From positions 1 to 25,868 of IMG/VR virus record IMGVR_UViG_3300043410_002046: a stretch of DNA of 25,868 bases. One strand, given 5' to 3'. The notes below the pieces were generated by a model, which ran no database searches, was not told the DNA's origin, and saw only the letters and a program-made list of their open reading frames with translations. Source of the stretch: a virus. The position numbers and the translations under genes are program-made. This document shows, piece after piece, positions 5,784 to 23,343 of the stretch (within the stretch, counting starts at the first letter, position 1; the number at the start of each line of letters is the position of its first letter).

Positions 5784-5857
5784 CCTCCTGTAGCTCAAAG
5801 GTAGAGCACACGACTGATAATCGTGAGACCATGGATCGATACCATGCGGGAGGACCA
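5784..5857 (+). tRNA. tRNA-Ile(GAT)
   Basis: Acceptor CCTCCTG / CGGGAGG, D-arm GCTC..GAGC, anticodon stem CACGA / TCGTG with loop CTGATAA (anticodon 5816-5818), CCA encoded. The T-loop is ATCGATA, with A in place of the usual T54. Confidence 0.92.
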
Positions 5858-5904
5858 GTTATAAAATGAATAATAACAGTTTTCATTATTATTCATTTTA
5901 TAAC
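5858..5904 (+). repeat. Perfect 19-bp AU-rich hairpin between tRNAs
   Basis: Arms 5858-5876 and 5886-5904 are perfect complements, with a 9-nt loop CAGTTTTCA. It begins directly after the CCA of tRNA-Ile and ends 6 nt before tRNA-Pro. As RNA it would be a long double strand suited to RNase III cutting. Confidence 0.9.
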
Positions 5905-5910
5905 AAGAAA

Positions 5911-5987
5911 CGGAGTGTAGCGCAGTCTGGTAGCGTGGCTGATTTGGAGTCAGTAGGTCGCAGGTTCGAACCCTGCCACTCCGACCA
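5911..5987 (+). tRNA. tRNA-Pro(TGG)
   Basis: Acceptor CGGAGTG / CACTCCG, A73, CCA encoded. Anticodon stem GCTGA / TCAGT with loop TTTGGAG (anticodon 5945-5947). D-arm GCGC..GCGT is typical of bacterial proline tRNAs. Confidence 0.95.
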
Positions 5988-5991
5988 ATTA

Positions 5992-6075
5992 GGAGGTATG
6001 CGAGCAAGGTGCTCAAGCGGTCTTGAAAACCGCGCCACCGCAAGGTTGATGGTTCGATTCCTTGTACCTCCGCCA
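5992..6075 (+). tRNA. tRNA-Ser(TGA)
   Basis: Class II tRNA: acceptor GGAGGTA / TACCTCC, anticodon stem GCGGT / ACCGC with loop CTTGAAA (anticodon 6024-6026), long variable arm, G73 and CCA. Confidence 0.95.
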
Positions 6076-6080
6076 AATTA

Positions 6081-6186
6081 TCCTGCTTTCTAGATACGCA
6101 GGAGAGACCTGTGCCAGATTAACATGAGGGGAACGCTGGCTAATATCGGATTGCTTACCTCTTCAGATCAATGGGCTGAACCGATA
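6081..6186 (+). ncRNA. Candidate structured RNA between tRNA-Ser and tRNA-Lys
   Basis: No ORF or tRNA fits here. Three stem-loops can be drawn: TCCTGC / GCAGGA (6081-6086, 6098-6103), GCCAG / CTGGC (6113-6117, 6136-6140), and a compound stem TATCGG + TTCAG / CTGAA + CCGATA (6144-6149, 6162-6166, 6176-6186) with a 12-nt bulge. Family unknown; a candidate only. Confidence 0.5.
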
Positions 6187-6201
6187 AGGTGTATGGAATA
6201 T

Positions 6202-6277
6202 GGACCGTTAGCTCAGTTGGTAGAGCAGGAGACTCTTAATCTCTTTGTCGCAAGTTCGATCCTTGCACGGTCTACCA
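6202..6277 (+). tRNA. tRNA-Lys(CTT)
   Basis: Acceptor GGACCGT / ACGGTCT (G1-T72 wobble), loop CTCTTAA (anticodon 6235-6237), T-arm GCAAG TTCGATC CTTGC, A73, CCA encoded. Confidence 0.95.
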
Positions 6278-6282
6278 ATTAT

Positions 6283-6358
6283 GAGGCGTTCGAATATCGG
6301 TTTAGTTCGCCACCCTTTCAAGGTGGAAAGATGGGTTCGATTCCCATACGCCTTACCA
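6283..6358 (+). tRNA. tRNA-Glu(TTC)
   Basis: Acceptor GAGGCGT / ACGCCTT, anticodon stem CCACC / GGTGG with loop CTTTCAA (anticodon 6317-6319), T-arm ATGGG TTCGATT CCCAT, CCA encoded. The D-arm GAAT..GTTC is AT-rich and atypical. Confidence 0.92.
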
Positions 6359-6359
6359 A

Positions 6360-6436
6360 GGACTCTTAGCTCAGTAGGTTAGAGCAGCGGTCTTTTAAAC
6401 CGAAGGTGCTGGGTTCGACTCCCAGAGAGTCCACCA
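6360..6436 (+). tRNA. tRNA-Lys(TTT)
   Basis: Acceptor GGACTCT / AGAGTCC, loop CTTTTAA (anticodon 6394-6396), T-arm CTGGG TTCGACT CCCAG, A73, CCA. It follows tRNA-Glu after one base. Pair 27-43 is mismatched (G-A). Confidence 0.94.
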
Positions 6437-6441
6437 AATCT

Positions 6442-6473
6442 GTTATATACAAACTATGAAATTTGTATATAAT
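6442..6473 (+). repeat. AU-rich hairpin between tRNA-Lys and tRNA-Asn
   Basis: TATATACAAA (6444-6453) pairs perfectly with TTTGTATATA (6462-6471), extendable by one or two pairs, around an 8-nt loop. Same placement and character as the 5858 hairpin, though unrelated in sequence. Confidence 0.8.
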
Positions 6474-6490
6474 ATATAGATAAAGTTTAT

Positions 6491-6567
6491 TTGCCTGAAC
6501 CCGAATAGGTATCGGGACCTGACTGTTAATCAGGCCACTGTAGGTTCGAATCCTACCAGGCAAGCCA
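6491..6567 (+). tRNA. tRNA-Asn(GTT)
   Basis: Acceptor TTGCCTG / CAGGCAA, loop CTGTTAA (anticodon 6525-6527), T-arm GTAGG TTCGAAT CCTAC, G73, CCA. The D-stem is CCCG / CGGG and positions 8-9 are AA, unusual for bacterial tRNA-Asn. Confidence 0.92.
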
Positions 6568-6572
6568 TTTAT

Positions 6573-6647
<75 letters not shown>

Positions 6648-6650
6648 TAT

Positions 6651-6758
6651 TTTAGATGGTCTGCGCCAAGTGCCAGAACGCGGCGAACTACTGAGTAAGC
6701 CCCTGACGCCGAAAGAGTAGTCGTGGTAAGAGACTAGCTGGAAAGTCCACCATCTAAA
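6651..6758 (+). ncRNA. Candidate structured RNA with pseudoknot
   Basis: A 108-nt unit closed by a perfect 10-bp helix TTTAGATGGT (6651-6660) / ACCATCTAAA (6749-6758). Inside, CGGCG (6681-6685) pairs with CGCCG (6707-6711), and ACTACT (6687-6692), from within that loop, pairs with AGTAGT (6716-6721), making an H-type pseudoknot. CCAG (6673-6676) / CTGG (6738-6741) adds an inner helix. There is no T-arm, so it is not a tRNA. Position among tRNAs recalls the stable RNAs C and D in the T4 tRNA cluster. Confidence 0.65.
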
Positions 6759-6767
6759 TGATCTTAA

Positions 6768-6843
6768 GGGGCCGTAGCTCAGTTGGGAGAGCGGTAGCTT
6801 TGCAAGCTTCAGGTCTGCGGTTCGATCCCGCACGGCTCCACCA
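6768..6843 (+). tRNA. tRNA-Ala(TGC)
   Basis: Acceptor GGGGCCG / CGGCTCC with the G3-T70 wobble that marks alanine identity. Loop TTTGCAA (anticodon 6801-6803), T-arm TGCGG TTCGATC CCGCA, A73, CCA. Confidence 0.96.
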
Positions 6844-6846
6844 GTA

Positions 6847-6928
6847 TCAGAGGACCTGGACAATAGTTTGGAGATTCTGAGCGGTTGATCGCGTCAAATA
6901 GATCCGACGGGAGCCACGGTCAGCTCCC
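6847..6928 (+). ncRNA. Candidate structured RNA between tRNA-Ala and tRNA-Thr
   Basis: TCAGA (6847-6851) / TCTGA (6876-6880), a small TTGA-TCGCG-TCAA hairpin near 6885-6897 and GGGAGC / GCTCCC (6909-6914, 6923-6928) can be formed. There is no U-tract after the last stem, so it is not a normal terminator. No ORF. Confidence 0.4.
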
Positions 6929-6936
6929 ACTTATTC

Positions 6937-7012
6937 GCTGGTTTAGCTCAGCAGGTAGAGCACCTGATTTGTAATCAGGCGGTCGTCAGTTCGATTCCGA
7001 CAACCAGCACCA
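6937..7012 (+). tRNA. tRNA-Thr(TGT)
   Basis: Acceptor GCTGGTT / AACCAGC, stem CCTGA / TCAGG with loop TTTGTAA (anticodon 6970-6972), A73, CCA encoded. Confidence 0.95.
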
Positions 7013-7117
7013 GAACGCGTACGATCTAGATACTCTAAGCCACCTGATGTACTATATGGTGGATGCCAGTCACAATGCTAGACGTTTCGGACCAAGCTGT
7101 GAGGTCGACTCAATTAT
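7013..7117 (+). other. Inter-tRNA spacer, possibly structured
   Basis: 105 nt without ORF or tRNA. CCACC (7040-7044) / GGTGG (7058-7062) forms a hairpin and CACA...TGTG brackets a second loop (about 7071-7091). Base composition and placement resemble the other candidate RNAs, but no closing helix was found. Confidence 0.35.
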
Positions 7118-7192
7118 TGCGGGATGGAGCAGTAGAAGCTCGCTTGGCTCATAACCAAGAGGTCGGAGGTGCAATTCCTTCTCCCGCTTCCA
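7118..7192 (+). tRNA. Initiator tRNA-fMet(CAT)
   Basis: TGCGGGA / TCCCGCT leaves positions 1 and 72 unpaired (T-T), the feature that marks bacterial initiator tRNAs. The GGAGCAG D-arm start matches fMet tRNAs; loop CTCATAA (anticodon 7150-7152). The anticodon stem has two rather than three terminal G-C pairs and the T-loop TGCAATT is atypical. CCA encoded. Confidence 0.88.
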
Positions 7193-7514
7193 GTTTCGAT
7201 GAGCAGAGTAGAGTCACGGTTTAGTAACAAGTAACCATTGGTTGTTACCTCTGAGTACTAAGCGAGGTCGGGGAGGCCTTGGTCGGCTTCATAACCTTGG
7301 GAACCCGTGCTCTGAAAAGGATAGCGCTGTCCGTCCTCATCGATACCTTATTCGTAGGCGTGGGAACCTACGTATCGCCAACCGGCTTCACACTGCACTG
7401 GCTTGGTTGGATATAGTGACTAGCCACTGGAGTCTAGCACGTGCAGTCGTCCGACCCATAAAATCTACTCCACGAAAAGGGAGATGCTGGATGGCAGTAA
7501 CCAGCGCGAGATTT
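7193..7514 (+). ncRNA. 322-nt non-coding stretch with extensive pairing
   Basis: No credible gene. The 5' half is closed by a perfect 8-bp helix TCGATGAG (7196-7203) / CTCATCGA (7336-7343), with GTAACAA / TTGTTAC (7224-7230, 7242-7248) and CAGAG / CTCTG (7204-7208, 7310-7314) inside. The 3' half has CGTAGG / CCTACG (7353-7358, 7367-7372), CTGCAC / GTGCAG (7393-7398, 7441-7446) enclosing TGGCT / AGCCA, and GCTGG / CCAGC (7486-7490, 7501-7505). It may be one or two RNAs. An ORF at 7242-7637 crosses it and tRNA-Asp and is judged spurious. Confidence 0.55.
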
Positions 7515-7588
7515 GATCCTGTTGCCGTCAGGGAAGGCCGCCCGCTGTCTACGGGCGAAGGAGGGTTCGAGTCCCTTCAGGATCGCCA
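7515..7588 (+). tRNA. tRNA-Asp(GTC)
   Basis: Acceptor GATCCTG / CAGGATC, stem GCCCG / CGGGC with loop CTGTCTA (anticodon 7547-7549), T-arm GAGGG TTCGAGT CCCTT, G73, CCA. T37 and a weak D-stem are unusual, so its activity is less certain than its neighbours. Confidence 0.8.
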
Positions 7589-7603
7589 TTACATAGGTGA
7601 GAC

Positions 7604-7930
7604 ATGGAAGAGCACATCAGCTACGAATACACTATGATGAATGAAATGTATAGAATTAAAGATGGTGGTCAACTTCAAATGGACGTCTTTAATAACATGT
7701 GGAACATCGTAGCTTTCACCACAGCACAGAACCTAATCTGGAGTCAACTCTTTGACCGTATAGAGATTCCAGATGACATTCTTGAGATCCTTGATAAGGT
7801 TGATGATCAAATCTTGTCGCTTACGTCTAGGCGTACTGATAATACTAGTGAAAAGCTTCAGCTCGAAGACTTTTTTACTCTCAAAAGCTTTATCGATCAA
7901 CATAAAGATAAGTTAAACATTCCGGAATAG
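7604..7930 (+). CDS. Hypothetical protein inside the tRNA array
   Basis: 108 residues, acidic and helical, with the leucine/isoleucine-rich middle IPDDILEILDKVDDQILSL. AGGTGAG precedes the ATG. The stop TAG (7928-7930) lies inside tRNA-Gln, a 10-nt overlap. Sits 15 nt after tRNA-Asp. No domain recognised. Confidence 0.7.
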   Translation: MEEHISYEYTMMNEMYRIKDGGQLQMDVFNNMWNIVAFTTAQNLIWSQLFDRIEIPDDILEILDKVDDQILSLTSRRTDNTSEKLQLEDFFTLKSFIDQHKDKLNIPE

Positions 7931-7995
7931 TTCAGCGGTAGAACATCAGACTCTGACTCTGAGTGTCGGTGGTTCGAATCCATCTTCCGGATCCA
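7921..7995 (+). tRNA. tRNA-Gln(CTG)
   Basis: Acceptor TCCGGAA / TTCCGGA, stem TCAGA / TCTGA with loop CTCTGAC (anticodon 7953-7955), T73, CCA. Its first 10 nt are the end of the upstream CDS. Confidence 0.92.
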
Positions 7996-8010
7996 AACAA
8001 CGAGGTCATC

Positions 8011-8235
8011 ATGAAGCTTGTATACTTTGCGGGTTCTTCTAATGGTAAGAAAACAGTTTCATTCTATCACGGTGATCACTTGCAATATGCGCCGCCTATC
8101 ATTACTACATGGTCTCATGTTGCCAAGCATTGGTTACAACATGCACCCGTTGGCGAATGGTTTATGGATGGTGATAAGATCTCAAACTATAAACATCAGT
8201 GGGTAATTGGTGTTGTAAAAGAAAATGTTGCCTGA
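8011..8235 (+). CDS. Hypothetical protein inside the tRNA array
   Basis: 74 residues starting MKLVYFAGSSNGKKTVSFYHG. ATG 8011 was chosen (GAGG upstream); the longer frame begins inside tRNA-Gln. Beta-strand-rich N-terminus and WSHVAKHWLQHAPVGEWFMDG middle. The TGA (8233-8235) lies within tRNA-Cys. Function unknown. Confidence 0.65.
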   Translation: MKLVYFAGSSNGKKTVSFYHGDHLQYAPPIITTWSHVAKHWLQHAPVGEWFMDGDKISNYKHQWVIGVVKENVA

Positions 8236-8301
8236 GCAGGACGGTAATGCGCGGGTCTGCAAAACCTTGAGAATCCGGTTCAACTCCGGAAGGCAACTCC
8301 A
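8227..8301 (+). tRNA. tRNA-Cys(GCA)
   Basis: Acceptor GTTGCCT / AGGCAAC, loop CTGCAAA (anticodon 8259-8261), T-arm TCCGG TTCAACT CCGGA and T73, as in bacterial tRNA-Cys. CCA encoded. Overlaps the upstream CDS by 9 nt. Confidence 0.92.
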
Positions 8302-8446
8302 AGTTTGTGGTAAGACGAGTCTCATCTAGCTCGGCCTGCAGGCGATACATGATGGGGTCGGAGTAATTAACCGACGAAAGGAGAATGGGAAGTCCAACTG
8401 GCTTGTGAGCCATAAATTGGACGGATACCTCACCTGCCACAAAACT
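8302..8446 (+). ncRNA. Candidate structured RNA between tRNA-Cys and tRNA-Arg
   Basis: 145 nt bracketed by AGTTTGTGG (8302-8310) and CCACAAAACT (8437-8446), a 9-bp helix with one bulge. Inside: GTCGG / CCGAC (8357-8361, 8371-8375) and a compound stem GTCCAA + TGGCT / AGCCA + TTGGAC (8392-8403, 8408-8422) with a TGTG loop. No ORF on the plus strand. The multi-branched fold is clear; the family is unknown. Confidence 0.62.
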
Positions 8447-8452
8447 AATTAC

Positions 8453-8530
8453 GGTCAGTTAGCTCAACTGGATAGTAGCATCGGAATACGGATCCGAAGG
8501 TTGAGGGTTCGAATCCTTCACTGACCACCA
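8453..8530 (+). tRNA. tRNA-Arg(ACG)
   Basis: Acceptor GGTCAGT / ACTGACC, stem TCGGA / TCCGA with loop ATACGGA (anticodon 8488-8490), A73, CCA. A34 would normally be changed to inosine by host TadA to read CGU, CGC and CGA. Confidence 0.93.
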
Positions 8531-8544
8531 TTATATATAGATCT

Positions 8545-9093
8545 ATGGAAAACATTTATTGTGCTCACTTGAACTTTGACATTGATACTTCTCCTCTTGA
8601 GAAGATTAAACAGTCTTGTAATAAGACACAGCTTGGGATCTTTGAGTATCCACAAGTTGATGAGAACTTAAAAAAGTTTCTCAGTAAATATCAGATAGTC
8701 ATAAGTCGAGCAGAAGTTTTTCATACTCCAGCCAAAGCAAAATTGCCCATTCACGTTGATATGGAAGAATTCAGTAATATAGTAAAACTGAATTGGGTTA
8801 TCGGTGGTGGTGAGATGATTTGGTGGAAACCAAAAGACAATACAGTACTTCGGCATCATACTACACCGATTGGTACAAAATATCTATTATTTGATGAATC
8901 AGAATGTAATGAAGTTTATCGTCAGAAAGTAGGTTGGCCAAGTTTGGTAAATGCTGGTGTTCCACATTCTGTTGATAATCATACAGATCAAAGTAGATGG
9001 TGCATAAGTCATAATATACATTGTTCTATTACTGGAGAACAATTACAGTGGCAAGATGCTATTAAAAGATTGGCGGAGGTAGCTCAGTGGTAG
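8545..9093 (+). CDS. 2-oxoglutarate/Fe(II)-dependent oxygenase-like protein
   Basis: 182 residues with a complete double-stranded beta-helix oxygenase signature: metal ligands H70 and D72 (PIHVDM) and H141 (GVPHSV), followed ten residues later by R151, the usual 2-oxoglutarate salt-bridge arginine. Strands NWVIGGGEMIWWKP lie between, as in the family. It should couple decarboxylation of 2-oxoglutarate to hydroxylation of an unknown substrate. It sits alone between tRNA-Arg and tRNA-Gly, and its stop falls 21 nt inside tRNA-Gly, so the C-terminus (LAEVAQW) is encoded by the tRNA. The ribosome-binding site is weak. Confidence 0.72.
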   Translation: MENIYCAHLNFDIDTSPLEKIKQSCNKTQLGIFEYPQVDENLKKFLSKYQIVISRAEVFHTPAKAKLPIHVDMEEFSNIVKLNWVIGGGEMIWWKPKDNTVLRHHTTPIGTKYLLFDESECNEVYRQKVGWPSLVNAGVPHSVDNHTDQSRWCISHNIHCSITGEQLQWQDAIKRLAEVAQW

Positions 9094-9147
9094 AGCTTTT
9101 GCTTGCCAAGCAAAGGGTCACGGGTTCGAACCCCGTTCTCCGCTCCA
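9073..9147 (+). tRNA. tRNA-Gly(GCC)
   Basis: Acceptor GCGGAGG / TCTCCGC, stem TTTGC / GCAAA with loop TTGCCAA (anticodon 9105-9107), T73, CCA encoded. Confidence 0.95.
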
Positions 9148-9152
9148 ATATT

Positions 9153-9227
9153 GCGGGTATAACTCAGTGGTAGAGTCACAGTCTTCCAAACTGTTGGTCG
9201 TGAGTTCGATTCTCATTGCCCGCTCCA
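9153..9227 (+). tRNA. tRNA-Gly(TCC)
   Basis: Acceptor GCGGGTA / TGCCCGC, stem ACAGT / ACTGT with loop CTTCCAA (anticodon 9185-9187), T73, CCA. Confidence 0.95.
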
Positions 9228-9232
9228 AGTAT

Positions 9233-9309
9233 GCCCCTGTAGCCCAATTGGTAGAGGTGCCGGTCTTAGAAACCGTAGGTTGTCAGTTCGAATCTGACCT
9301 GGGGCACCA
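9233..9309 (+). tRNA. tRNA-Leu(TAG), short variable loop
   Basis: Acceptor GCCCCTG / CTGGGGC (one T-T mismatch), loop CTTAGAA (anticodon 9267-9269), T-arm GTCAG TTCGAAT CTGAC, A73, CCA. Bacterial leucine tRNAs normally carry a long variable arm; here only about five bases (AGGTT) lie between the anticodon stem and the T-arm. Confidence 0.88.
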
Positions 9310-9314
9310 AACAA

Positions 9315-9390
9315 GCCCGCTTAGCTCAGTTGGTAGAGCAACTGATTAGTAATCAGTAGGTCGGCGGTTCGAATCCGTCAGCGGGCACCA
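9315..9390 (+). tRNA. tRNA-Thr(AGT)
   Basis: Acceptor GCCCGCT / AGCGGGC, stem ACTGA / TCAGT with loop TTAGTAA (anticodon 9348-9350), A73, CCA. A34 in a threonine tRNA is rare in bacteria. Confidence 0.92.
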
Positions 9391-9393
9391 TAT

Positions 9394-9467
9394 GCCATCT
9401 TAGTGTAATGGGAGCACGAGAGTTTGTGACACTCTTAGCACTGGATCGTAACCAGTAGATGGTACCA
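9394..9467 (+). tRNA. tRNA-His(GTG), A73 type
   Basis: Acceptor GCCATCT / AGATGGT, stem AGAGT / ACTCT with loop TTGTGAC (anticodon 9426-9428), CCA. There is no G at -1 and the discriminator is A, not C, the form known in alphaproteobacteria. The T-loop is ATCGTAA, lacking T54. Confidence 0.9.
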
Positions 9468-9472
9468 TTAAT

Positions 9473-9557
9473 GGGGAGACGGCGAAGTAGGAGAGTCGCG
9501 CTCGACTGTAAATCGAGTTCTTAAGATGAGTTGGTTCGATTCCATCTCTCCCCACCA
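9473..9557 (+). tRNA. tRNA-Tyr(GTA)
   Basis: Class II: acceptor GGGGAGA / TCTCCCC, stem CTCGA / TCGAG with loop CTGTAAA (anticodon 9508-9510), a variable arm of about a dozen bases, A73, CCA. The T-stem has one mismatch. Confidence 0.94.
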
Positions 9558-9563
9558 ATTAAT

Positions 9564-9640
9564 GCCGATGGGTCGGTGGCGGCCATCGAACAGTCCTCAT
9601 AAGACTGCCTAAGTTGTTTCGAGTACAACCATCGGCACCA
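9564..9640 (+). tRNA. tRNA(CAT), elongator Met or Ile2, odd D-arm
   Basis: Acceptor GCCGATG / CATCGGC, stem CAGTC / GACTG with loop CTCATAA (anticodon 9598-9600), T-arm GTTGT TTCGAGT ACAAC, A73, CCA. The D region folds as CGGTGG-CGG-CCATCG rather than the usual 4-bp stem with a GG loop. Whether C34 becomes lysidine (Ile) cannot be told. Confidence 0.8.
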
Positions 9641-9654
9641 ATTAAGGAAATATC

Positions 9655-9984
9655 ATGTACGATAAGAAAGTGATTCGCTATATTTTTGACCAAGAAAACT
9701 TACTTGTTCCTTGGTATCTGATTGCATCATATGCTTATTATGTAAAAGATAATCCTATTATTTCTGATGGATTGTTTGATAAAATTTGTAAAGATATGCT
9801 TGAACATTGGGATAAAATTAATCATTATCACAAGTACTTAATTGACAAGGAATCTTTAGATGCTGGTACTTGTCTATTAAAAGATGATGAATACGAATGT
9901 GATACTGAGGGTAAGACACCAATAGGGTATTATCCAAAGAGAGTTAAATACATTTATGAGAGCCTCAAGGAGACTAAAGTATGA
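9655..9984 (+). CDS. Phage hypothetical protein resembling DNA-ligase N-terminal segment
   Basis: 109 residues. LVPWYLIASYAYYVKDNPIISDGLFDKICKDML... follows the pattern YY..D.P.ISD..YD.L at the start of NAD-dependent DNA ligases, but nothing of the nucleotidyltransferase domain is present, so ligase activity is not expected. AAGGAAA lies upstream. The TGA overlaps the next ATG (ATGA). Confidence 0.7.
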   Translation: MYDKKVIRYIFDQENLLVPWYLIASYAYYVKDNPIISDGLFDKICKDMLEHWDKINHYHKYLIDKESLDAGTCLLKDDEYECDTEGKTPIGYYPKRVKYIYESLKETKV

Positions 9985-10226
9985 TTCATGTAGAAAAACT
10001 CAAACATCATATTGAAGCACTTAAGAAGAAACATTCTGACCTCGACAAGCAAATTGAAGAATCTTATCTTCATTACGATCCCGACAATGTCATTAAAAAA
10101 CTAAAATATGTAAAACTTCAATTAAAAAATGAAATTGAAGAATGTGAGAAAAAGATTGCTTCGGTAGCTCAGTTGGTAGAGCACCTGCCTGAAGAGCAGG
10201 GTGTCGGCGGTTCGACCCCGTCCTGA
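9981..10226 (+). CDS. DUF465-like coiled-coil protein running through tRNA-Phe
   Basis: 81 residues. The first 60 (HIEALKKKHSDLDKQIEES ... LKYVKLQLKNEIEECEKKI) form a helical hairpin like the small DUF465/YdcH family. The frame has no stop before tRNA-Phe, so the last 20 residues (SVAQLVEHLPEEQ...) are read from the tRNA gene and end at TGA 10224-10226. AAGGAG sits in the upstream gene. Confidence 0.65.
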   Translation: MIHVEKLKHHIEALKKKHSDLDKQIEESYLHYDPDNVIKKLKYVKLQLKNEIEECEKKIASVAQLVEHLPEEQGVGGSTPS

Positions 10227-10233
10227 AGCACCA
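10158..10233 (+). tRNA. tRNA-Phe(GAA)
   Basis: Acceptor GCTTCGG / CTGAAGC, stem CCTGC / GCAGG with loop CTGAAGA (anticodon 10191-10193), A73, CCA. Almost wholly inside the end of the upstream ORF. Confidence 0.95.
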
Positions 10234-10238
10234 TAATA

Positions 10239-10324
10239 GGAGAGTGGGCAGGACGGTAATGCAGCGGTTTGCTAAACCGTAGAACCGCAAGGTTCAATTG
10301 GTTCGACTCCAATACTCTCCGCCA
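10239..10324 (+). tRNA. tRNA-Ser(GCT)
   Basis: Class II: acceptor GGAGAGT / ACTCTCC, loop TTGCTAA (anticodon 10271-10273), long variable arm AGAACCGCAAGGTTC, G73, CCA. Confidence 0.95.
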
Positions 10325-10336
10325 TAAATACCATGA

Positions 10337-10410
10337 ATCGGTGAAGTGTTACGGTAGCACATCAGTCTCCAAAACTGAGGGCCTGGGTTCGACTCCTAGC
10401 ACCGGTGCCA
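10337..10410 (+). tRNA. tRNA-Trp(CCA)
   Basis: Acceptor ATCGGTG / CACCGGT, stem TCAGT / ACTGA with loop CTCCAAA (anticodon 10369-10371), G73, CCA. Last tRNA of the array. Confidence 0.93.
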
Positions 10411-10482: not shown

Positions 10483-12327
10483 ATGAAAAAATTATTAGGA
10501 GCGCTGGTCGCTCTGTTTGCTCTTGTCAGTACCGCTTATGCTGATCAAGCACTTATTATAGACGCAGGTTATAGCACAGTAACACAAAACGTAAAAGGTC
10601 GCCTTGAAGCAGCAGGGCATACTGTTACAGTAACAACAGATTTATCTTTAATTCCAACAACCACTGGTTCATATCAACAAGTTTGGGATCTAAGATATTC
10701 AGCTGCTTTAACTTCAGGTGAACAGACAAAATATCAATCATTTATTACTAATGGTGGTTTTGCTTATTTCGTAACTGAAAATCCTGGTTGCTGTATGGCA
10801 CGTAACAATTCTGTTGCTGCTCTTATTACATCATTAGGTGGCGGTTCAACTCAAATTGGTCCAGGTTGGGCTAATAATGTTGAAACAAATATGAATACCA
10901 CTTATATGACTAACGGTTTAACAGTTAACTATGCTGCTGTTGCCGCTATCGTTAACAGTCAAGGTATCCCTCTTATCTCTGACGGCTCTGGTGCTGTATC
11001 AGGTATGTCGTGGATCGGCCGTGCTGATGCTCTTGGTCAGGGAGTAACTGGTACAATTATTACTGTTGCTGATACTAACTGGCTGGATCAATCACGTTTC
11101 GTTGTAGGCGGTACTTCTGCTCAGCAACAAAACGTACAAGCACTTGATGATATCATTCGTGGTGTTGTTGCCGGCACTGTTGCTGGTACAATTAGTGCTT
11201 CAGGCAATGGTTCTGGTGCTACAAATGGTAATTCTGGTGGCGGTTCTCCTCCACCTCCAACTCTTGTAAGTTCAGCTCCAGGTCAAAATATTGTTAATTC
11301 TTCAACTGCATATGGCCAAGCTGTTGTTACTAATCAAGTAGTAGATGGTAGTACTAAAGCTGGTAAGAATCTAACAGTAACAAGAACAACTACACCAGTA
11401 ACTGTTACACCTTACACCGTAACTACAGTAACTACACCTACAACTGTAGATACATATAGTGATGGTTCAACTGTTACAACAAATGGTACCGCAGTAACTA
11501 CCACCACATCTGGTGATATTATTACTGTCGGTCAATCTACATCTCAATCAAAAACTATTTCTGCTTCTGCTACAGCTGATTCAATTAAAGCAAAGAATAT
11601 GAACTTATTCTTAATTGATCCACTGTCACAGAACGATGGTACTTGGGCAACACCTTATGCCGGTTATATCTCATCTGTAGGTAATTACCGTATGCAAGGT
11701 GGTTCATTTGGCTGGCAGAAAACTGTTGAGAATAACTCAATCGGTATTGCTGGTAATATGATTTACGGTAAAGCAGGTAATCAGCCAGGATCACAATCTG
11801 ATTCAGAATCTTATTCTGGTAATATGTACTTACTATCTAAGCAATCATTTGCTTGGTTAAAAGCAGTACTTGGTTATAGCAATACCGAGCACAGAACACA
11901 GACAAGTATTCCAGAATTTGCATTAGCTAATAATTCTAAAGTTCGTCAGAATAACTATTATGCAGATCTTGGTGCTTATTCAGCTGATACTCTTTATGGT
12001 ATTAGAGCAGTTGGTGGTGCTACAATTAATTATAGCACTTTAAAGGGGTCAGAATCCGGTTCTCCTCTGCTTTCAACTTTACCTGAGAATGGTGGAACTA
12101 CTAAAGTATCACCATATTTTGGTTTAAGATATGAATATCAGAAAGCATCTTTTGAAACTCGTGTATATACAAATACCGAGTACAAAACTGTTATTACTAA
12201 TAAAGCTTCTATTAATCAGCCAATCCGTGAGAATGTATTTGTTAACGGAACTCTAGGTTTTGATAAAAGCTTGGATGAAAGATACAATAATACTTACGGT
12301 ACCATTGGCCTAAGAATAGCATTCTAA
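10483..12327 (+). CDS. Exported protein with outer-membrane beta-barrel-like C-terminus (autotransporter-like)
   Basis: 614 residues. A signal peptide MKKLLGALVALFALVSTAYA (1-20) is followed by an alpha/beta domain (about 21-245) with AGHTVTVTTDLS, YQQVWDLRY and GGFAYFVTENPGCC, reminiscent of class-I amidotransferase/ThuA-like folds. Then comes a linker GGGSPPPP (near 255), a Thr/Val-rich low-complexity region to about 360, and about 240 residues of alternating strands (from about 373) ending IGLRIAF, with the C-terminal Phe typical of outer-membrane barrels. This resembles a small autotransporter, odd for a phage. It could alter the infected cell surface or be a virion adhesin. GGAG lies upstream; many GGT/ACT codons. 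Confidence 0.7.
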   Translation: MKKLLGALVALFALVSTAYADQALIIDAGYSTVTQNVKGRLEAAGHTVTVTTDLSLIPTTTGSYQQVWDLRYSAALTSGEQTKYQSFITNGGFAYFVTENPGCCMARNNSVAALITSLGGGSTQIGPGWANNVETNMNTTYMTNGLTVNYAAVAAIVNSQGIPLISDGSGAVSGMSWIGRADALGQGVTGTIITVADTNWLDQSRFVVGGTSAQQQNVQALDDIIRGVVAGTVAGTISASGNGSGATNGNSGGGSPPPPTLVSSAPGQNIVNSSTAYGQAVVTNQVVDGSTKAGKNLTVTRTTTPVTVTPYTVTTVTTPTTVDTYSDGSTVTTNGTAVTTTTSGDIITVGQSTSQSKTISASATADSIKAKNMNLFLIDPLSQNDGTWATPYAGYISSVGNYRMQGGSFGWQKTVENNSIGIAGNMIYGKAGNQPGSQSDSESYSGNMYLLSKQSFAWLKAVLGYSNTEHRTQTSIPEFALANNSKVRQNNYYADLGAYSADTLYGIRAVGGATINYSTLKGSESGSPLLSTLPENGGTTKVSPYFGLRYEYQKASFETRVYTNTEYKTVITNKASINQPIRENVFVNGTLGFDKSLDERYNNTYGTIGLRIAF

Positions 12328-12600: not shown

Positions 12601-12632
12601 TATAAATAAACAGTGGGCCTCATGAACCCACT
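12601..12632 (+). promoter_or_regulatory. Possible T4-type late promoter and leader hairpin
   Basis: TATAAATA (12601-12608) is the exact T4 late-promoter element read by the gp55 sigma factor. It is followed by a 6-bp hairpin AGTGGG / CCCACT (12612-12617, 12627-12632). The next gene starts at 12658. The octamer alone could occur by chance in AT-rich DNA. Confidence 0.45.
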
Positions 12633-12657
12633 AGAAACCATATATGGAGAGTTAAGA

Positions 12658-13602
12658 ATGACAACCAAGATACGTTGGGTTATTGCCCATGAACCAATCG
12701 GTCTCTTCCTTAAAGTAGCTGAACGTTTCAGCAAGGAAGTTAATGAAAAGACTGGTGGTAAATTTGATATTGAAGTACTTTCGCTTACAGATTATGCCAA
12801 CAAATATAACGAAGGTAAGAAGATTACCAAGTATCATTTGATGGATATGATCAATAATGGTACTATCGAAATGAGCCATATCTACACTACATGGCTTGCC
12901 GATTACAATAAAGATCTTCATGCATTAGATCTTCCATTCTTGTTCCGTGATCATAAGCACGCTGACCGTATCCTTGAAGGTGACCTTGGCAAGAATCTAT
13001 TGGCTGGTGTTTCTCAGAACTCAAACATCAAGGCCATGAGCTTTACTTACTCAGGTGGTTATCGTATTGTTCCTGCTAACTTCAAGGCAGATACAGTAGA
13101 ATCATGGCAGGGTAAGGTAGTTCGTACATCACGTTCACCAGTTGCTGAAGATGTTTTCAAGCTTCTCGGTGCTGAACCTCGTGGTGATATTGCTCTTGAA
13201 GATATGAATGAAGCAGCCACACGTGGTGAAATTGCCGCTGGTGAATCTACATATGTTCGCGTGTTCCCACTTGAACACGATAAGGCATTCGAATATGTCA
13301 ACGATACAGCACACAGCCTGTTCTTGACTAGCATTATTGTCAACAATGACTTCTTTGCTAAGTTTGATGAAGAAACTCAGAGAATTATGGCTGATGCCGC
13401 TGCCACTGCAGCCCGCATTGAACGCCGTGAATCTGTTGCGGATATTCCAAACATTCTTGCTGAATGCAATGAAAAAGGTGTTGAAGTTGTAAAGATGTCT
13501 GCCGAAGAAGAATCAAAGTTCAAAGCTATCACTTCTAAGGTATATGATAAGTATAAAGACTACTTTACACCTGGTCTTGTCCCAGCACTTGTTGCTGCCT
13601 AA
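12658..13602 (+). CDS. DctP-type TRAP solute-binding protein, no signal peptide (copy 1)
   Basis: 314 residues, the normal mature size of DctP-family proteins. IRWVIAHEP opens the first strand. DLPFLFRDHKHADRIL (91-106) is the family hallmark, and YSGGYR (R136) and GKVVR (R156) supply the two arginines around the ligand carboxylate. DctP proteins bind C4-dicarboxylates or other organic acids in the periplasm for TRAP importers. Here there is no signal peptide, so the product should stay in the cytoplasm, and no TRAP membrane subunits are nearby. ATG 12658 (GGAGAG 6 nt upstream) is preferred to GTG 12613. A paralog follows. Confidence 0.82.
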   Translation: MTTKIRWVIAHEPIGLFLKVAERFSKEVNEKTGGKFDIEVLSLTDYANKYNEGKKITKYHLMDMINNGTIEMSHIYTTWLADYNKDLHALDLPFLFRDHKHADRILEGDLGKNLLAGVSQNSNIKAMSFTYSGGYRIVPANFKADTVESWQGKVVRTSRSPVAEDVFKLLGAEPRGDIALEDMNEAATRGEIAAGESTYVRVFPLEHDKAFEYVNDTAHSLFLTSIIVNNDFFAKFDEETQRIMADAAATAARIERRESVADIPNILAECNEKGVEVVKMSAEEESKFKAITSKVYDKYKDYFTPGLVPALVAA

Positions 13603-13608
13603 TTTATA

Positions 13609-13630
13609 GGGCGGGGTTTCGGCTCCGCCC
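13609..13630 (+). terminator. GC-rich hairpin between the DctP paralogs
   Basis: GGGCGGGG / CTCCGCCC (8 bp with one G-U) around TTTCGG, then only ATTT. It is strong as a hairpin but poor in U, so it is likelier a partial terminator or a 3' stability element. Confidence 0.6.
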
Positions 13631-13648
13631 ATTTAACAGGGGATTCAT

Positions 13649-14668
13649 ATGAATCAAGAACCAATGAAACTTCGCTGGCTTATTGCACATCAACCAGCAC
13701 ATCTGTTCATCAGAACTGCCGAAGCTTTCGCAGCTGAACTTGAAAAAGAGTTGCCGGGTCAGTATGAAATAGAAATACTAACCATGAGAAAATACATGGA
13801 AAAGTATGGCGATATTCCAGAGCTGAAGATGAAGCCCGGTACTGTTGAAGGCATTGAGAAACTAGAAGGTCAAGAATTCTTTGAAAGTGTCGAGTGGGAT
13901 AAAATCAAAGAAAAATGGCAAGCATTCTTCAATGCATTGAAAACGGCCAAGATACATTTAAGTCAAACACAAGTTACTACAATCGGTTATCTTCATTCAT
14001 TATATAATGTACTTGATCTTCCATTCTTGTTTAAAGATCATGATCATGTTTCTCGTGTACTTGATGGTAGCATTGGCGACAAGCTTTCACAGAGCCTTAA
14101 AGATAAAACTGGTGTACGCGGTCTTGCATTTACTTACAGTGGCGGTTATCGTATTATTGGATCTAATCATCCAATTAAAAATCTCGATGAACTCAAAAAT
14201 GTTGAAGTAACTACTGTTCCGTATACAAAAGAAATGTTTGCTAAACTGGCAAAGAATGCTATAAACAGACAGTCTCAAAAGCTTGATGAAATTGCAGAAA
14301 ATGTAAGTTCCGGTGGTGCTATTGAAACCACATATTTACGTTTTGCTGGTAAAAATGTTCTGAAGACTAATCATAGTATTTTTATGACTTCAATTCTCAT
14401 TGGCGAGCCTTTCTTTGAAACTTTACCTGAAGAACATCGTGAAGTATTCCAGAGAGCGGCAAAGAAAGTAGCAAAACTTGAACGTCAATGGTCGCTTGAG
14501 GATGCAGAAACTTACGAGATCAATGCTGAAGAAAAAGGCATTTCAATCGTAGATCTTTCCGAGGAAGAAAAGAATGCTATGAAGAGTATTGCACCAAAAC
14601 AATATACTCGTGCATATAGCAATATTAAAGGAAGCGTAGTTTTAGTAGATGAAATTCAAAATTCTTAA
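13649..14668 (+). CDS. DctP-type TRAP solute-binding protein, no signal peptide (copy 2)
   Basis: 339 residues, paralog of the preceding gene: IRW/LRWLIAHQP start, VLDLPFLFKDHDHVSRVL (121-138) and FTYSGGYR (R168). An insertion of about 30 residues (55-100) follows the first domain. The second ligand arginine of copy 1 (GKVVR) is replaced here (NVEVTT, 184-189), so the ligand or mode of binding has probably changed. It has no signal peptide, and GGGGA lies upstream. A retained fold with a changed pocket suggests divergence after duplication. Confidence 0.8.
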   Translation: MNQEPMKLRWLIAHQPAHLFIRTAEAFAAELEKELPGQYEIEILTMRKYMEKYGDIPELKMKPGTVEGIEKLEGQEFFESVEWDKIKEKWQAFFNALKTAKIHLSQTQVTTIGYLHSLYNVLDLPFLFKDHDHVSRVLDGSIGDKLSQSLKDKTGVRGLAFTYSGGYRIIGSNHPIKNLDELKNVEVTTVPYTKEMFAKLAKNAINRQSQKLDEIAENVSSGGAIETTYLRFAGKNVLKTNHSIFMTSILIGEPFFETLPEEHREVFQRAAKKVAKLERQWSLEDAETYEINAEEKGISIVDLSEEEKNAMKSIAPKQYTRAYSNIKGSVVLVDEIQNS

Positions 14669-14685
14669 TTGATTTGGAGATTATA

Positions 14686-14934
14686 ATGTTTAAAACATGG
14701 CGTAATAAGTGGAATGAGAAGCAACGACGCTCAATCACAAAAGTGGTGACCTGGAGAATCTTGGTCACCATTACTAACTTTATAGGCGGATGGTTAGCAT
14801 CCGGCAACCCTTGGGTCGGCCTTGGTGTCGTCTCGTTTGCTTTAGTAGTGAACTCTATACTTTACTGGGTACACGAACGTATGTGGAATGTAACTGACTG
14901 GGGTAAAGAAATTGCCGAAAGTACTACAGTATAA
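14686..14934 (+). CDS. DUF2061 small membrane protein
   Basis: 82 residues. RSITKVVTWRILVTITNFIG opens the first membrane helix, SFALVVNSILYWVHERMW the second, and WNVTDWG ends the core: the DUF2061 pattern (K..TWR..., H.R.W). The family consists of small two-helix inner-membrane proteins of unknown role. ATG 14686 (GGAGA 5 nt upstream) is preferred to TTG 14674. Its 3' end overlaps the likely TTG start of the next gene. Confidence 0.8.
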   Translation: MFKTWRNKWNEKQRRSITKVVTWRILVTITNFIGGWLASGNPWVGLGVVSFALVVNSILYWVHERMWNVTDWGKEIAESTTV

Positions 14935-16000
14935 TAACTTTGTTCTCTCTGCAATGCTCAGAGATCCAGACAAAGAACTCTTACCATTATTTGAACCTTA
15001 TTTGGCTGATAATTATCTGAAAACATTTAGAAGGTATGATGACTTTCTAATGACTCAGAATGTTGTGTGTGATAGATCAGGTGCATTGCCGCACTTCGTC
15101 AATATGACTTATCCACACAAAATGCCAGATTATGATCCTACGTTCAATAAATCTTTCCAAGAAGTAGCAGAAGAACGAGCAAAAGAATTACTTCAAACTA
15201 ACAAACGAATTAAAGTTTGTTGGTCGGGCGGTATTGATAGTACTTACGTGCTTCTTCTCCTTGGCAATATGGCCAATGATCGTTCACAAATTACAGTCTA
15301 TGGTTCTTATAGTTCAATTGTTGAATCTGGTGATATCTTTGATAGATATATTAAAGATAGATTTAAGTATGAAATCAATGTATATAATTCTGAGAAACTC
15401 AGAAAATCGAAAGATGATAGTGTATACATTACAGGATTCCAAGGCAATCAGATCTTTGGTCCAACTGATGATTTCTTTGCCACGAATCAGCCGCAGGTAT
15501 TTTTCCATCATACGATGGGAACACCAGAAACAATCTATGAAGATTATAGAACAAATGTTAATCCAGAACTTCTAGAATTTCTTCAACCTGCTATTGATAG
15601 ATCTCCAAGAAAAATTGAAACTGTTTGTGATCTGAGATGGTATTGTATCTTTAATATGGACTGGCATAATGGTTTATATTTTGCTACAAGTGAAATGCCA
15701 AAAGAAAGATTTATGAATACACATCATTTCTTTAATACTGAAGACTTTCAGAAATGGGCTATAACTACAAAAGAACCATTTACAAAAATTAAAGGTAATT
15801 CCAAAACACACAGATGGCAAATGCGTGATTATATTGCTGAATGTGGCTTGGTAGAATATAGTAAAAATAAACCCAAAGCAATTTCCAATCTGGCTTCTGC
15901 TAGTGGATGGTGGTTTTTCCTAACCGAAAATCTAGATAACATTTACTATGACAAATCAACAAGGGAGTTGACAGTTGGATCAAAATACATCAAATTCTGA
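14912..16000 (+). CDS. PP-loop ATP pyrophosphatase-like protein (asparagine-synthase type), copy 1
   Basis: 362 residues from TTG 14912 (348 from ATG 14954; the start is uncertain). KVCWSGGIDST (101-111) is a textbook PP-loop that binds the ATP pyrophosphate in N-type ATP pyrophosphatases. The later NTHHFFNTEDFQKWA, then K and R residues, resemble the C-terminal half of the asparagine synthase domain. Such enzymes adenylate a carboxyl or carbonyl group before amidation, cyclisation or thiolation. There is no glutaminase domain, so another nitrogen donor or reaction is implied. It lies between DUF2061 and a small ORF, with a paralog two genes later. Its TAA is inside the next ORF. Confidence 0.75.
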   Translation: MPKVLQYNNFVLSAMLRDPDKELLPLFEPYLADNYLKTFRRYDDFLMTQNVVCDRSGALPHFVNMTYPHKMPDYDPTFNKSFQEVAEERAKELLQTNKRIKVCWSGGIDSTYVLLLLGNMANDRSQITVYGSYSSIVESGDIFDRYIKDRFKYEINVYNSEKLRKSKDDSVYITGFQGNQIFGPTDDFFATNQPQVFFHHTMGTPETIYEDYRTNVNPELLEFLQPAIDRSPRKIETVCDLRWYCIFNMDWHNGLYFATSEMPKERFMNTHHFFNTEDFQKWAITTKEPFTKIKGNSKTHRWQMRDYIAECGLVEYSKNKPKAISNLASASGWWFFLTENLDNIYYDKSTRELTVGSKYIKF

Positions 16001-16289
16001 ACCTTATGTAGATTGTTATATCTTTGAAGTAATGCAGTGGCCAAGATATGGTGATCACTATAACTATTATGTGCTCAATGATATTTTCTATTTTAACTCT
16101 TTGATAGGCGCTTCTCCCGAGAAAGCAAATTCTAGGTATATGAAAATACCTGAGCATTATATCTTGAATGCTGAAATGGAAAAAGTATTAGAGCAAAAAG
16201 ATAGAATTATCGGCAAGCCTGTAATAAGAAAAATAACTGAGCAGAGTTGGGCATTTGATACTTTTGTTATTGATCAAGAGATAATTTAA
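15975..16289 (+). CDS. Hypothetical protein between the PP-loop genes
   Basis: 104 residues from a TTG start; AAGGGAG lies 8 nt upstream and no ATG fits. It has many aromatic residues (CYIFEVMQWPRYGDHYNYY). It overlaps copy 1 by 26 nt, and its TAA overlaps the ATG of copy 2 (TAATG). Tight coupling suggests it works with the PP-loop proteins, perhaps as a partner or substrate. No domain recognised. Confidence 0.65.
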   Translation: MDQNTSNSEPYVDCYIFEVMQWPRYGDHYNYYVLNDIFYFNSLIGASPEKANSRYMKIPEHYILNAEMEKVLEQKDRIIGKPVIRKITEQSWAFDTFVIDQEII

Positions 16290-17320
16290 TGCTCGTAAGT
16301 TATTTTATGCATGCATATATGGCTCATGAATCAATAAGTCATACTATGAAAAATCAAACCAAAATAAGATGGGTGGAAAGACCTGATTTGGTAAGAAATT
16401 ATCTAGCAATAGCTAGATCAAGAAAACAATTTATTCCTTATTATGATAGATCTAAAACTCTACCACACTTTCTTCCTATTTCGTGTATAGCACCACTTCC
16501 TCCACCAGAAAGAAAAGTAGTGGTGCCATTTGAAGAAGCATTTTTTCAGCATGCAGAAATGCTTATAAAGAAAAATAGAGTATTAAATGTTTTTTGGAGC
16601 GGTGGTATAGATAGCACTTGTATCTTGAGTGGTCTATTTTTGGCTGGTGCAAGACCTGATCAAATTCACGTAAGTCTAACAAAAAGATCAGTTGATGAAT
16701 ATCCATGGTTCTTTGAAAATATTATTAAAGGAAAATTAAGTCACGGAGATCCCAATACAAGTCTTGCCGATCAAATTGATTTATTTCCGGATGAATATCT
16801 AAATATCACGGGTGATCTTTTTGGTGATATGTTTGCGGCTATTCAAGCAATTAAAGATTTTGATCGTGATGCTCCATGGCAAGATAATTTTACTGATAAG
16901 AAATTAATTGAGTTTTTGGAACCACTGGCTGAAAATAATGGTTATGTAAAATTAAAAACTATTTCTGAGATGAGCTGGGGCTTGAAGTTTTTCCTACAGT
17001 GGCAATTTAATAAAATAAGAAAATGCATTTATTCAGATAAGTTTTTTCAGAATACTCATCATTTTGCCGATGATGATGATCTGCTCCAATACTGGAGTAT
17101 ATATAGTGAAGAATCCAGATTACCGAATAAGCAAAAAGCTAGGGAAATGATTCTTTCTTTTACTAAAGATCTTGATTACTATAAAAATAAGAAAAAAGTT
17201 AGATCAATAGAAGATACCAATAAACACATCCTTGGATGGCATGGTTCACTTTCTCGTGAACCATTATATAACAACTATAGCAAAGTTTTTCTAGAAGATG
17301 GGAGATTGATATTAAGATGA
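16289..17320 (+). CDS. PP-loop ATP pyrophosphatase-like protein, copy 2
   Basis: 343 residues. NVFWSGGIDST (100-110) is the PP-loop. The preceding TLPHFLPIS and the later NTHHFADDDDLLQYWSI align with copy 1 (ALPHFVNM, NTHHFFNTEDFQKWAI), so the two are paralogs with the same architecture. The C-terminus is lysine-rich. Stop and next start overlap (ATGA). ATG 16289 is used; a second ATG at 16346 is possible. Confidence 0.75.
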   Translation: MLVSYFMHAYMAHESISHTMKNQTKIRWVERPDLVRNYLAIARSRKQFIPYYDRSKTLPHFLPISCIAPLPPPERKVVVPFEEAFFQHAEMLIKKNRVLNVFWSGGIDSTCILSGLFLAGARPDQIHVSLTKRSVDEYPWFFENIIKGKLSHGDPNTSLADQIDLFPDEYLNITGDLFGDMFAAIQAIKDFDRDAPWQDNFTDKKLIEFLEPLAENNGYVKLKTISEMSWGLKFFLQWQFNKIRKCIYSDKFFQNTHHFADDDDLLQYWSIYSEESRLPNKQKAREMILSFTKDLDYYKNKKKVRSIEDTNKHILGWHGSLSREPLYNNYSKVFLEDGRLILR

Positions 17321-18246
17321 AAAAGTTGTTTACAGTACTGTTAGCATGGTGTATGATTACAACTATGGCTAATGCAAAAACATACAAAATCATAGTTCCT
17401 AATGAAGCAGGAACTGGTTCTGACATTAATGCAAGAATCTTTACTGAAAAGCTTAAAGATTATAGCGAACATAAGTTCATTGTTACCAACGTGCCTGGTG
17501 CTCAAGGCATTAAAGCACACGAACAATTTGTCAATACAAAAGATAATGATGAAATTCTTTTCACTCATTGGGGTCGACAGATTTTTCTTGAAGGTACAAT
17601 GAATCTTAGATTTTCTACTATGGATTATCGCCCAATTATAATGATTAGTGAAAGTCCTTTATTTTTACTCACTCGTGATACCAAACCACTTACGGAAAAT
17701 TCTTGGGTGGCAATTTCTGGTGGTCCATCACAAGTGGCAGCAACAATACTAAGAAATAAATCAGGTATTAACTTCAACGTTATTTTATATCCTTCTGATA
17801 AAGAAATCTTTAAGGAAATGTTAAACGGTGCTGTTGACTTTACATTTACTACAGCACCGACTGCGGTACCTATGTTAAAGACTAAGCAACTTGGTGTGAT
17901 GTATACCACACAAACTACACCTGCTAAAGATCTTGAAACTGTTCCTACCAGCGATAAGCATCAATGGGGATTTAATCTATCAAACTGGCAAGCCATCTAT
18001 GCTAATAAATATATGACCAGTGCTGAGATAGCAGAGATTAATGCCGCCTTTAGTAAGGCAATGGATAATCCTGAACTACAAAAGAAGTTTGAAGAATTAG
18101 GAACATACATACCTAAACCTGAACAAAGAACATCTGAATATCTGGATAAGAGACAAAGAGCTGAACTTAAAGACTTTAAAGACAACTATCTGAAACTTGG
18201 TTGTCTAAAGATTCCCGAGGGAAGCAGAAAAATAATCTGTAACTGA
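17317..18246 (+). CDS. TctC/Bug-type periplasmic binding protein
   Basis: 309 residues. Signal peptide MKKLFTVLLAWCMITTMANA, then IIVPNEAGTGSDINARIFTEKL and NVPGAQGIKAHE, which track the Bug pattern (IVPF.PGG..D..AR...EKL, N.PGA.G). Bug proteins bind carboxylates such as citrate, aspartate or nicotinate for tripartite (TTT) transporters. No TctA/TctB is present, so it may feed a host transporter or scavenge ligand. Coupled to the PP-loop copy 2 gene by ATGA. Confidence 0.82.
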   Translation: MKKLFTVLLAWCMITTMANAKTYKIIVPNEAGTGSDINARIFTEKLKDYSEHKFIVTNVPGAQGIKAHEQFVNTKDNDEILFTHWGRQIFLEGTMNLRFSTMDYRPIIMISESPLFLLTRDTKPLTENSWVAISGGPSQVAATILRNKSGINFNVILYPSDKEIFKEMLNGAVDFTFTTAPTAVPMLKTKQLGVMYTTQTTPAKDLETVPTSDKHQWGFNLSNWQAIYANKYMTSAEIAEINAAFSKAMDNPELQKKFEELGTYIPKPEQRTSEYLDKRQRAELKDFKDNYLKLGCLKIPEGSRKIICN

Positions 18247-23268: not shown

Positions 23269-23343
23269 TGGGGCATCGTCTAATCGGTAGGACAGCTGAC
23301 TTTGACTCAGTCAATCGTGGTTCGAGTCCATGTGCCCCAGCCA
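23269..23343 (+). tRNA. tRNA-Gln(TTG), isolated
   Basis: Acceptor TGGGGCA / TGCCCCA, stem GCTGA / TCAGT with loop CTTTGAC (anticodon 23302-23304), G73, CCA. Lies 12.9 kb from the array, inside a run of small protein genes. Confidence 0.95.

Follow-up and report, generated by a model that had tools for sequence, protein, structure and literature searches.

Signal-less TRAP-type solute-binding proteins of T4-like phages: one clade, a conserved pocket and repeated proximity to PP-loop genes

The solute-binding proteins of TRAP transporters are taken as periplasmic parts of importers. The DctP-family members (PF03480), such as SiaP, TeaA and IseP, have a common two-lobed fold, and an arginine equivalent to R147 of SiaP, which fixes the carboxylate, is found in 96.8% of DctP proteins (PMC4646407). 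Binding folds outside the periplasm are also known, as about 1% of the proteins retrieved with solute-binding Pfam profiles from 49 bacterial strains were predicted to be cytosolic; these are bacterial, and the accessible part of that report describes no phage family or signal-less TRAP DctP (PMC9602780). Two BFVD entries of uncultured Caudovirales phage, A0A6J7WI33 and A0A6J7WKL0 ('TRAP transporter solute receptor DctP/TeaA'), are half-length (159 and 162 aa) and annotated only as transporter receptors; they share 50% and 36% identity, respectively, with the first of the two proteins treated here. No description of a signal-less DctP family of phages was found in the literature that could be searched.

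The window, that is the whole stretch of DNA analysed, is an entire IMG/VR record, a virus contig of 25,868 bases (IMGVR_UViG_3300043410_002046). Its features relevant here are the following.

424-1140: sliding clamp, T4-type
1178-2131: clamp loader, T4-type
2550-2951: RegA-type repressor, T4-type
12601-12608, plus strand: T4-type late promoter element TATAAATA, exact match, 57 nt before the ATG at 12658
12646-12651, plus strand: ribosome-binding site GGAGAG of DctP copy 1 (sequence)
12658-13602, plus strand: signal-less DctP copy 1, 314 aa, TRAP-type solute-binding fold, R156 kept
13609-13630, plus strand: GC-rich hairpin GGGCGG...CCGCCC between the copies, no T-run (sequence)
13638-13643, plus strand: ribosome-binding site AGGGGA of DctP copy 2 (sequence)
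13649-14668, plus strand: signal-less DctP copy 2, 339 aa, TRAP fold, T188 at the R156 equivalent
14686-14934, plus strand: DUF2061 small membrane protein (Pfam), a recurrent neighbour of DctP
14912-16000, plus strand: PP-loop ATP-pyrophosphatase-like protein (SGGIDS), family c1
15975-16289, plus strand: small protein of family c16, recurring beside DctP or a PP-loop gene
16289-17320, plus strand: second PP-loop protein (SGGIDS), family c1
17317-18246, plus strand: Bug/TctC solute-binding protein with a signal peptide (MKKLFTVLLAWCMITTMANA), the internal control for export

The row thus holds two DctPs without a signal peptide, two PP-loop enzymes and an exported Bug. Neither DctQ nor DctM was found in the window, by the ORF list and by Pfam scans of the ORFs around the DctP pair. 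Unlike the known DctP-family proteins, the phage clade is devoid of a signal peptide and mostly of DctQM, and copy 2 in addition lacks the carboxylate arginine. Elsewhere in the window are 25 tRNA genes, 24 of them in a single cluster (5784-10410) and the other at 23269-23343, as well as two host-like surface proteins: a 614-aa protein that bears a signal peptide and matches no Pfam family with confidence (10483-12327) and an outer-membrane beta-barrel protein (PF13505; 18383-18934).

An earlier note on this DNA had claimed that both DctP genes start directly before the first strand, behind good ribosome-binding sites, and that they encode no signal peptide, unlike the Bug gene downstream. The sequence bears this out. 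Copy 1 starts at ATG 12658 (MTTKIRWVIAHEP) and copy 2 at ATG 13649 (MNQEPMKLRWLIAHQP), the first strand begins 6-9 residues after the start in both, and the Bug protein encoded from 17317 has an ordinary signal peptide. An upstream start giving an export signal, the objection which the note raised against itself, was examined for both copies and is ruled out by in-frame stops and non-hydrophobic extensions: the stop upstream of copy 1 ends at 12609 and permits at most 16 residues (TVGLMNPLETIYGELR), and that of copy 2 ends at 13636 and permits at most 4. The hairpin 3' of copy 1 was considered as a terminator; it has no T-run and was not called one.

The absence of the signal is a property of the whole group. 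For copy 2, 97 relatives were found in IMG/VR, of which 80 were kept and examined. A profile search of IMG/VR gave 429 matching stretches, again with 80 kept and examined; the 429 may include other DctPs, and, on sequence evidence, a signal-less DctP is encoded in hundreds of T4-like phage contigs, that of the window included. The T4-type major capsid protein Gp23 was present in 24 of 38 tested contigs that share DctP. Export was judged by the peak hydrophobicity of the first 30 residues, a simple measure and not SignalP, and by this measure none of the 115 non-redundant full-length phage DctPs among the kept relatives has a signal peptide. The peak was 0.8-2.0 in the phage DctPs, 2.3-3.5 in signal-bearing bacterial homologues and 2.2-3.5 in 20 of the 21 phage Bugs (1.4 in the remaining one). 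As all 115 begin likewise, the signal-less start is not due to chance. A tblastn search of the phage collection returned only distant matches (at most 35% identity), in fecal contigs and in records named after Salmonella, Escherichia, Listeria and Enterococcus.

Of the 90 proteins placed in a tree, 63 from phages and 8 signal-less ones from bacterial or MAG contigs form one clade with a support of 100/100; the 18 signal-bearing proteins all lie outside it, and so does L098, a signal-less protein on a long branch. Two of the contigs in the clade are short and may be phage (L093 and L103), while in six the surroundings look bacterial by eye, with genes for flagellin and cobalamin among others (L084, L085, L086, L089, L090 and L102). 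The nearest signal-bearing relatives found are exported DctPs of the WxxAHEP type from Bdellovibrionota and others (L087, L088, L091, L092, L094-L097 and L099); they share the WVLAHEP, TYSGG, R201 and ER signatures with the signal-less clade but possess clear signal peptides and stand outside it. The loss of an export signal means that the protein should remain inside the infected cell, and we strongly infer from the sequences that the signal-less DctPs stay in the cytosol. The Bug/TctC proteins, which are of a carboxylate-binding type and are encoded adjoining DctP in the same phages, have clear signal peptides in all but one of the cases and hence can act in the periplasm. In two relatives, the N-lobe and C-lobe of DctP are encoded by separate ORFs, with the break at about residue 153 (L016, minus strand; L021, 10077-11663, with two C-lobes); a similar appearance is shown by record G015 and by two BFVD entries of half length.

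Both copies match PF03480 well above the Pfam gathering cut-off of 23.4 bits (copy 1, 1.8e-44 and 152.7 bits; copy 2, 3.2e-31 and 109.2 bits). Their AlphaFold2 models have pLDDT values of 96.0 and 94.2, and the structures that match them best are solved TRAP binding proteins, with Z 35.9 for copy 1 (298 residues, rmsd 1.9) and Z 29.4 over 291 residues for copy 2, which carries an insert ahead of the SQT strand in its first lobe. As modelled, both are complete TRAP solute-binding folds. Across the 115 phage members W7, H11, TYSGG and R201 are invariant, and position 136 is arginine in 110 and lysine in 5. The carboxylate arginine, equivalent to SiaP R147 by sequence alignment only, is R156 in copy 1; leaving the copy-2 clade aside, 95 of the 103 phage members have it, as do 8 of the 9 signal-less proteins from bacterial contigs. 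The earlier note had stated that copy 2 lost one of the pocket arginines, and the alignment agrees: T188 stands in place of R156, whereas R136/R168 and R201/R231 are retained. Within the copy-2 clade, of 12 proteins, L019 keeps this arginine and the other 11 lack it. Judged from the alignment, the ligand pocket is conserved, except for this hallmark arginine in copy 2 and most of its clade. Devoid of the residue that fixes the carboxylate, copy 2 probably takes a different ligand, perhaps a non-carboxylate. Copy 1 is under purifying selection, with dN/dS of about 0.13 against close relatives; for copy 2, selection could be viewed only in comparisons with saturated dS.

PP-loop enzymes recur among the genes around DctP. 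A PP-loop gene of family c1, c2 or c6 lies within 5 kb of DctP in 89 of 114 loci. For c1 (SGGIDS), the distance is 3 kb or less in 22 of 37 whole records, as compared with a mean of 3.4 and a maximum of 10 in 1000 random placements, and the DctP-c1 pairing is found on the bacterial-looking contigs L084 and L090 as well. Against the PDB, c1 gives weak best matches, every one of them a PP-loop enzyme (GMP synthase, LarE, asparagine synthetase and TilS); a PDB profile search with c2 returned nothing. Further recurrent neighbours are DUF2061, Bug and c16. Metabolic islands with Rieske, AdoMet decarboxylase, fatty acid desaturase, ATP-grasp and several PP-loop genes occur near DctP in L043 (12296-19921), L036 and L037. 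In four MAG contigs (L085, L086, L090 and L102), a family of about 200 aa, with approximately 60-67% identity between genomes and no significant Pfam match, is encoded near the signal-less DctP; its HTD...H pattern suggests a possible 2OG oxygenase.

Transport genes also adjoin DctP. For example, a complete TRAP transporter of DctQ, DctM and a signal-bearing DctP is located between two signal-less DctPs in L009 (11558-14556) and L012 (11590-14588). The presence of a complete exported TRAP system beside the signal-less copies indicates that the latter are not simply the binding proteins of that transporter. Likewise, in L003 (5106-7238) DctP adjoins a TctA permease (PF01970, 1.2e-35), and the gene after the permease encodes a signal-bearing protein of 276 aa that has no Pfam match. 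An MFS gene, tested with Pfam, stands beside DctP in L102, and MFS-like genes in L085 and L086 are known by sequence similarity only. The assignment of c124 in L005 as DctM was withdrawn, as c124 is a head scaffold protein and the DctM matches of L005 lie elsewhere.

The linkage with PP-loop and carboxylate-transporter genes suggests that DctP carries or receives an organic acid, which is then activated. The explanation that we favour, although it falls a little short of an even chance, is that the cytosolic TRAP-type binding protein is a carboxylate-binding carrier or receptor for a PP-loop activation cassette, with ligand and partner putative. Its computed basis is the complete fold, the clade-wide absence of the signal, the conserved pocket, the purifying selection on copy 1 and the PP-loop linkage. 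The copy-1-type protein would be made late in infection and in quantity; a small organic acid would enter through phage or host carboxylate transporters; the signal-less DctP would bind it in the host cytosol as a stoichiometric receptor or carrier and present the collected acid to the adjacent PP-loop enzyme(s), which would activate it with ATP. Copy 2 probably would take a different ligand, e.g., the product or a second substrate. Against the carrier, 25 of the 114 DctP loci have no PP-loop gene within 5 kb and some DctP contigs have no c1 PP-loop at all; contact between DctP and the PP-loop enzyme is putative. The promoters also appear to speak against it, as that of DctP looks late, whereas the PP-loop, Bug and c2 genes rarely have a late promoter of their own, and DctP sometimes lies in the head/tail module.

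The late promoter is TATAAATA in T4 and NATAAATA in S-PM2 (PMC2984593). The window has two exact TATAAATA sites, a count which alone is not above chance expectation, and therefore the significance of the promoter rests on the relatives. TAAATA occurs at -12 to -75 of 42 of the 60 DctP genes in relatives and of 168 of 794 other genes, and a comparable pattern was seen only for the tail sheath, tail tube, neck and a few other clusters. The enrichment was weaker in a second set of relatives (28 of 61 vs 181 of 595, p = 0.02), where exact TATAAATA was not enriched upstream of DctP. In codon adaptation, copy-1-type genes rank 1-2 among the non-structural genes in 7 loci, while copy-2-type genes are average (that of L076 is last of 6). 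Together, the late promoters and the codon adaptation suggest that copy-1-type proteins are abundant, which is what a stoichiometric binder, be it sponge or carrier, would need.

The same observations could be read as a sponge or buffer: a cytosolic binder, made in large amounts, would sequester an acidic host metabolite or an immune or alarm signal, and the neighbours would be incidental cargo. Such a protein would possibly resemble the phage sponge proteins by analogy, on a TRAP-binding fold. The late promoter in the window and many relatives, the high codon rank of the copy-1 type and the conserved pocket all suit a sponge; the recurrent PP-loop and transporter linkage suggests a pathway instead, and the same protein is found beside MFS and PP-loop genes in bacterial-looking contigs. 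Moreover, late expression would come late for blocking an immune signal, and no defence or anti-defence gene was recognised among the DctP neighbours in a survey made without PADLOC. We regard a sponge as unlikely. The sponge or sensor put forward in the earlier note is possible but gained no specific support, and the PP-loop enzymes and carboxylate transporters fit a carrier or receptor at least equally well.

The location of DctP in some genomes brings in a structural role. In several phages the gene is inside the head/tail module, away from metabolic genes, and in L005, L022 and L044 it adjoins the head closure, head maturation protease, scaffold and major capsid genes. With a late promoter pattern like that of the tail sheath, tail tube and neck genes and with high codon adaptation, the fold might have been recruited as a late structural or packaged protein. 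However, the residues of the ligand pocket are near-invariant, the position of DctP varies widely and tracks PP-loop genes more than head genes, and the six bacterial-looking contigs carry signal-less members with metabolic neighbours, two of them (L084 and L090) with the DctP-c1 pairing where no virion is made. A virion or head-assembly protein is hence improbable in our estimate.

We give about as little credence to an enzyme, i.e., a binding fold that gained a catalytic role in the cytosol, as in other solute-binding-like folds. In its favour, the family has specific invariant residues beyond the canonical pocket (W7, H11, R201, H219, T224, E255 and R256). Most of them are, however, also kept in the exported bacterial homologues, so that the cytosolic form did not gain them, and the high expression exceeds the usual need for an enzyme.

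A periplasmic binding protein of the ordinary kind, whose start was missed or whose export route is not recognised and which serves host or phage TRAP transporters, would account for the canonical fold and pocket and for DctQ and DctM in some phages, yet it is very improbable. It is contradicted by the mapped starts (in the window, stops preclude every extension that could bear a signal), by a trait that is clade-wide at 100/100, by the separate exported DctP in the phages with a TRAP operon that were examined (L009 and L012) and by DctM being absent from 34 of 38 relative records and present in 4. A role in a TRAP importer is contradicted by the absent signal together with that separate exported DctP, and the claim of the earlier note that these proteins cannot serve an importer is well supported. 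An inverted TRAP exporter of phage DctM and signal-less DctP was dropped when the exported DctP was found in the same operon.

The DctP family itself is known; what appears to be new is that an entire clade lacks the signal, has a conserved pocket and is tied to PP-loop cassettes. Returning to the carrier, a wider form of it is conceivable but doubtful: the clade may have moved to the cytosol to become a dedicated substrate receptor for ATP-pyrophosphatases in T4-like phages and some bacteria, delivering to an enzyme and not to a transporter, with two paralogues, of which only one has the carboxylate arginine, serving two steps or two substrates. Phage copies of this kind would be labelled as transport genes, as in BFVD, though they are unable to serve as the periplasmic binding protein of an importer, and recognising this removes a probable cause of false calls of 'viral transporter' auxiliary metabolic genes. 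If the clade is cytosolic with an intact pocket, the TRAP fold can act as a free receptor or carrier, and this would point to undescribed phage biochemistry built on several families of PP-loop enzymes.
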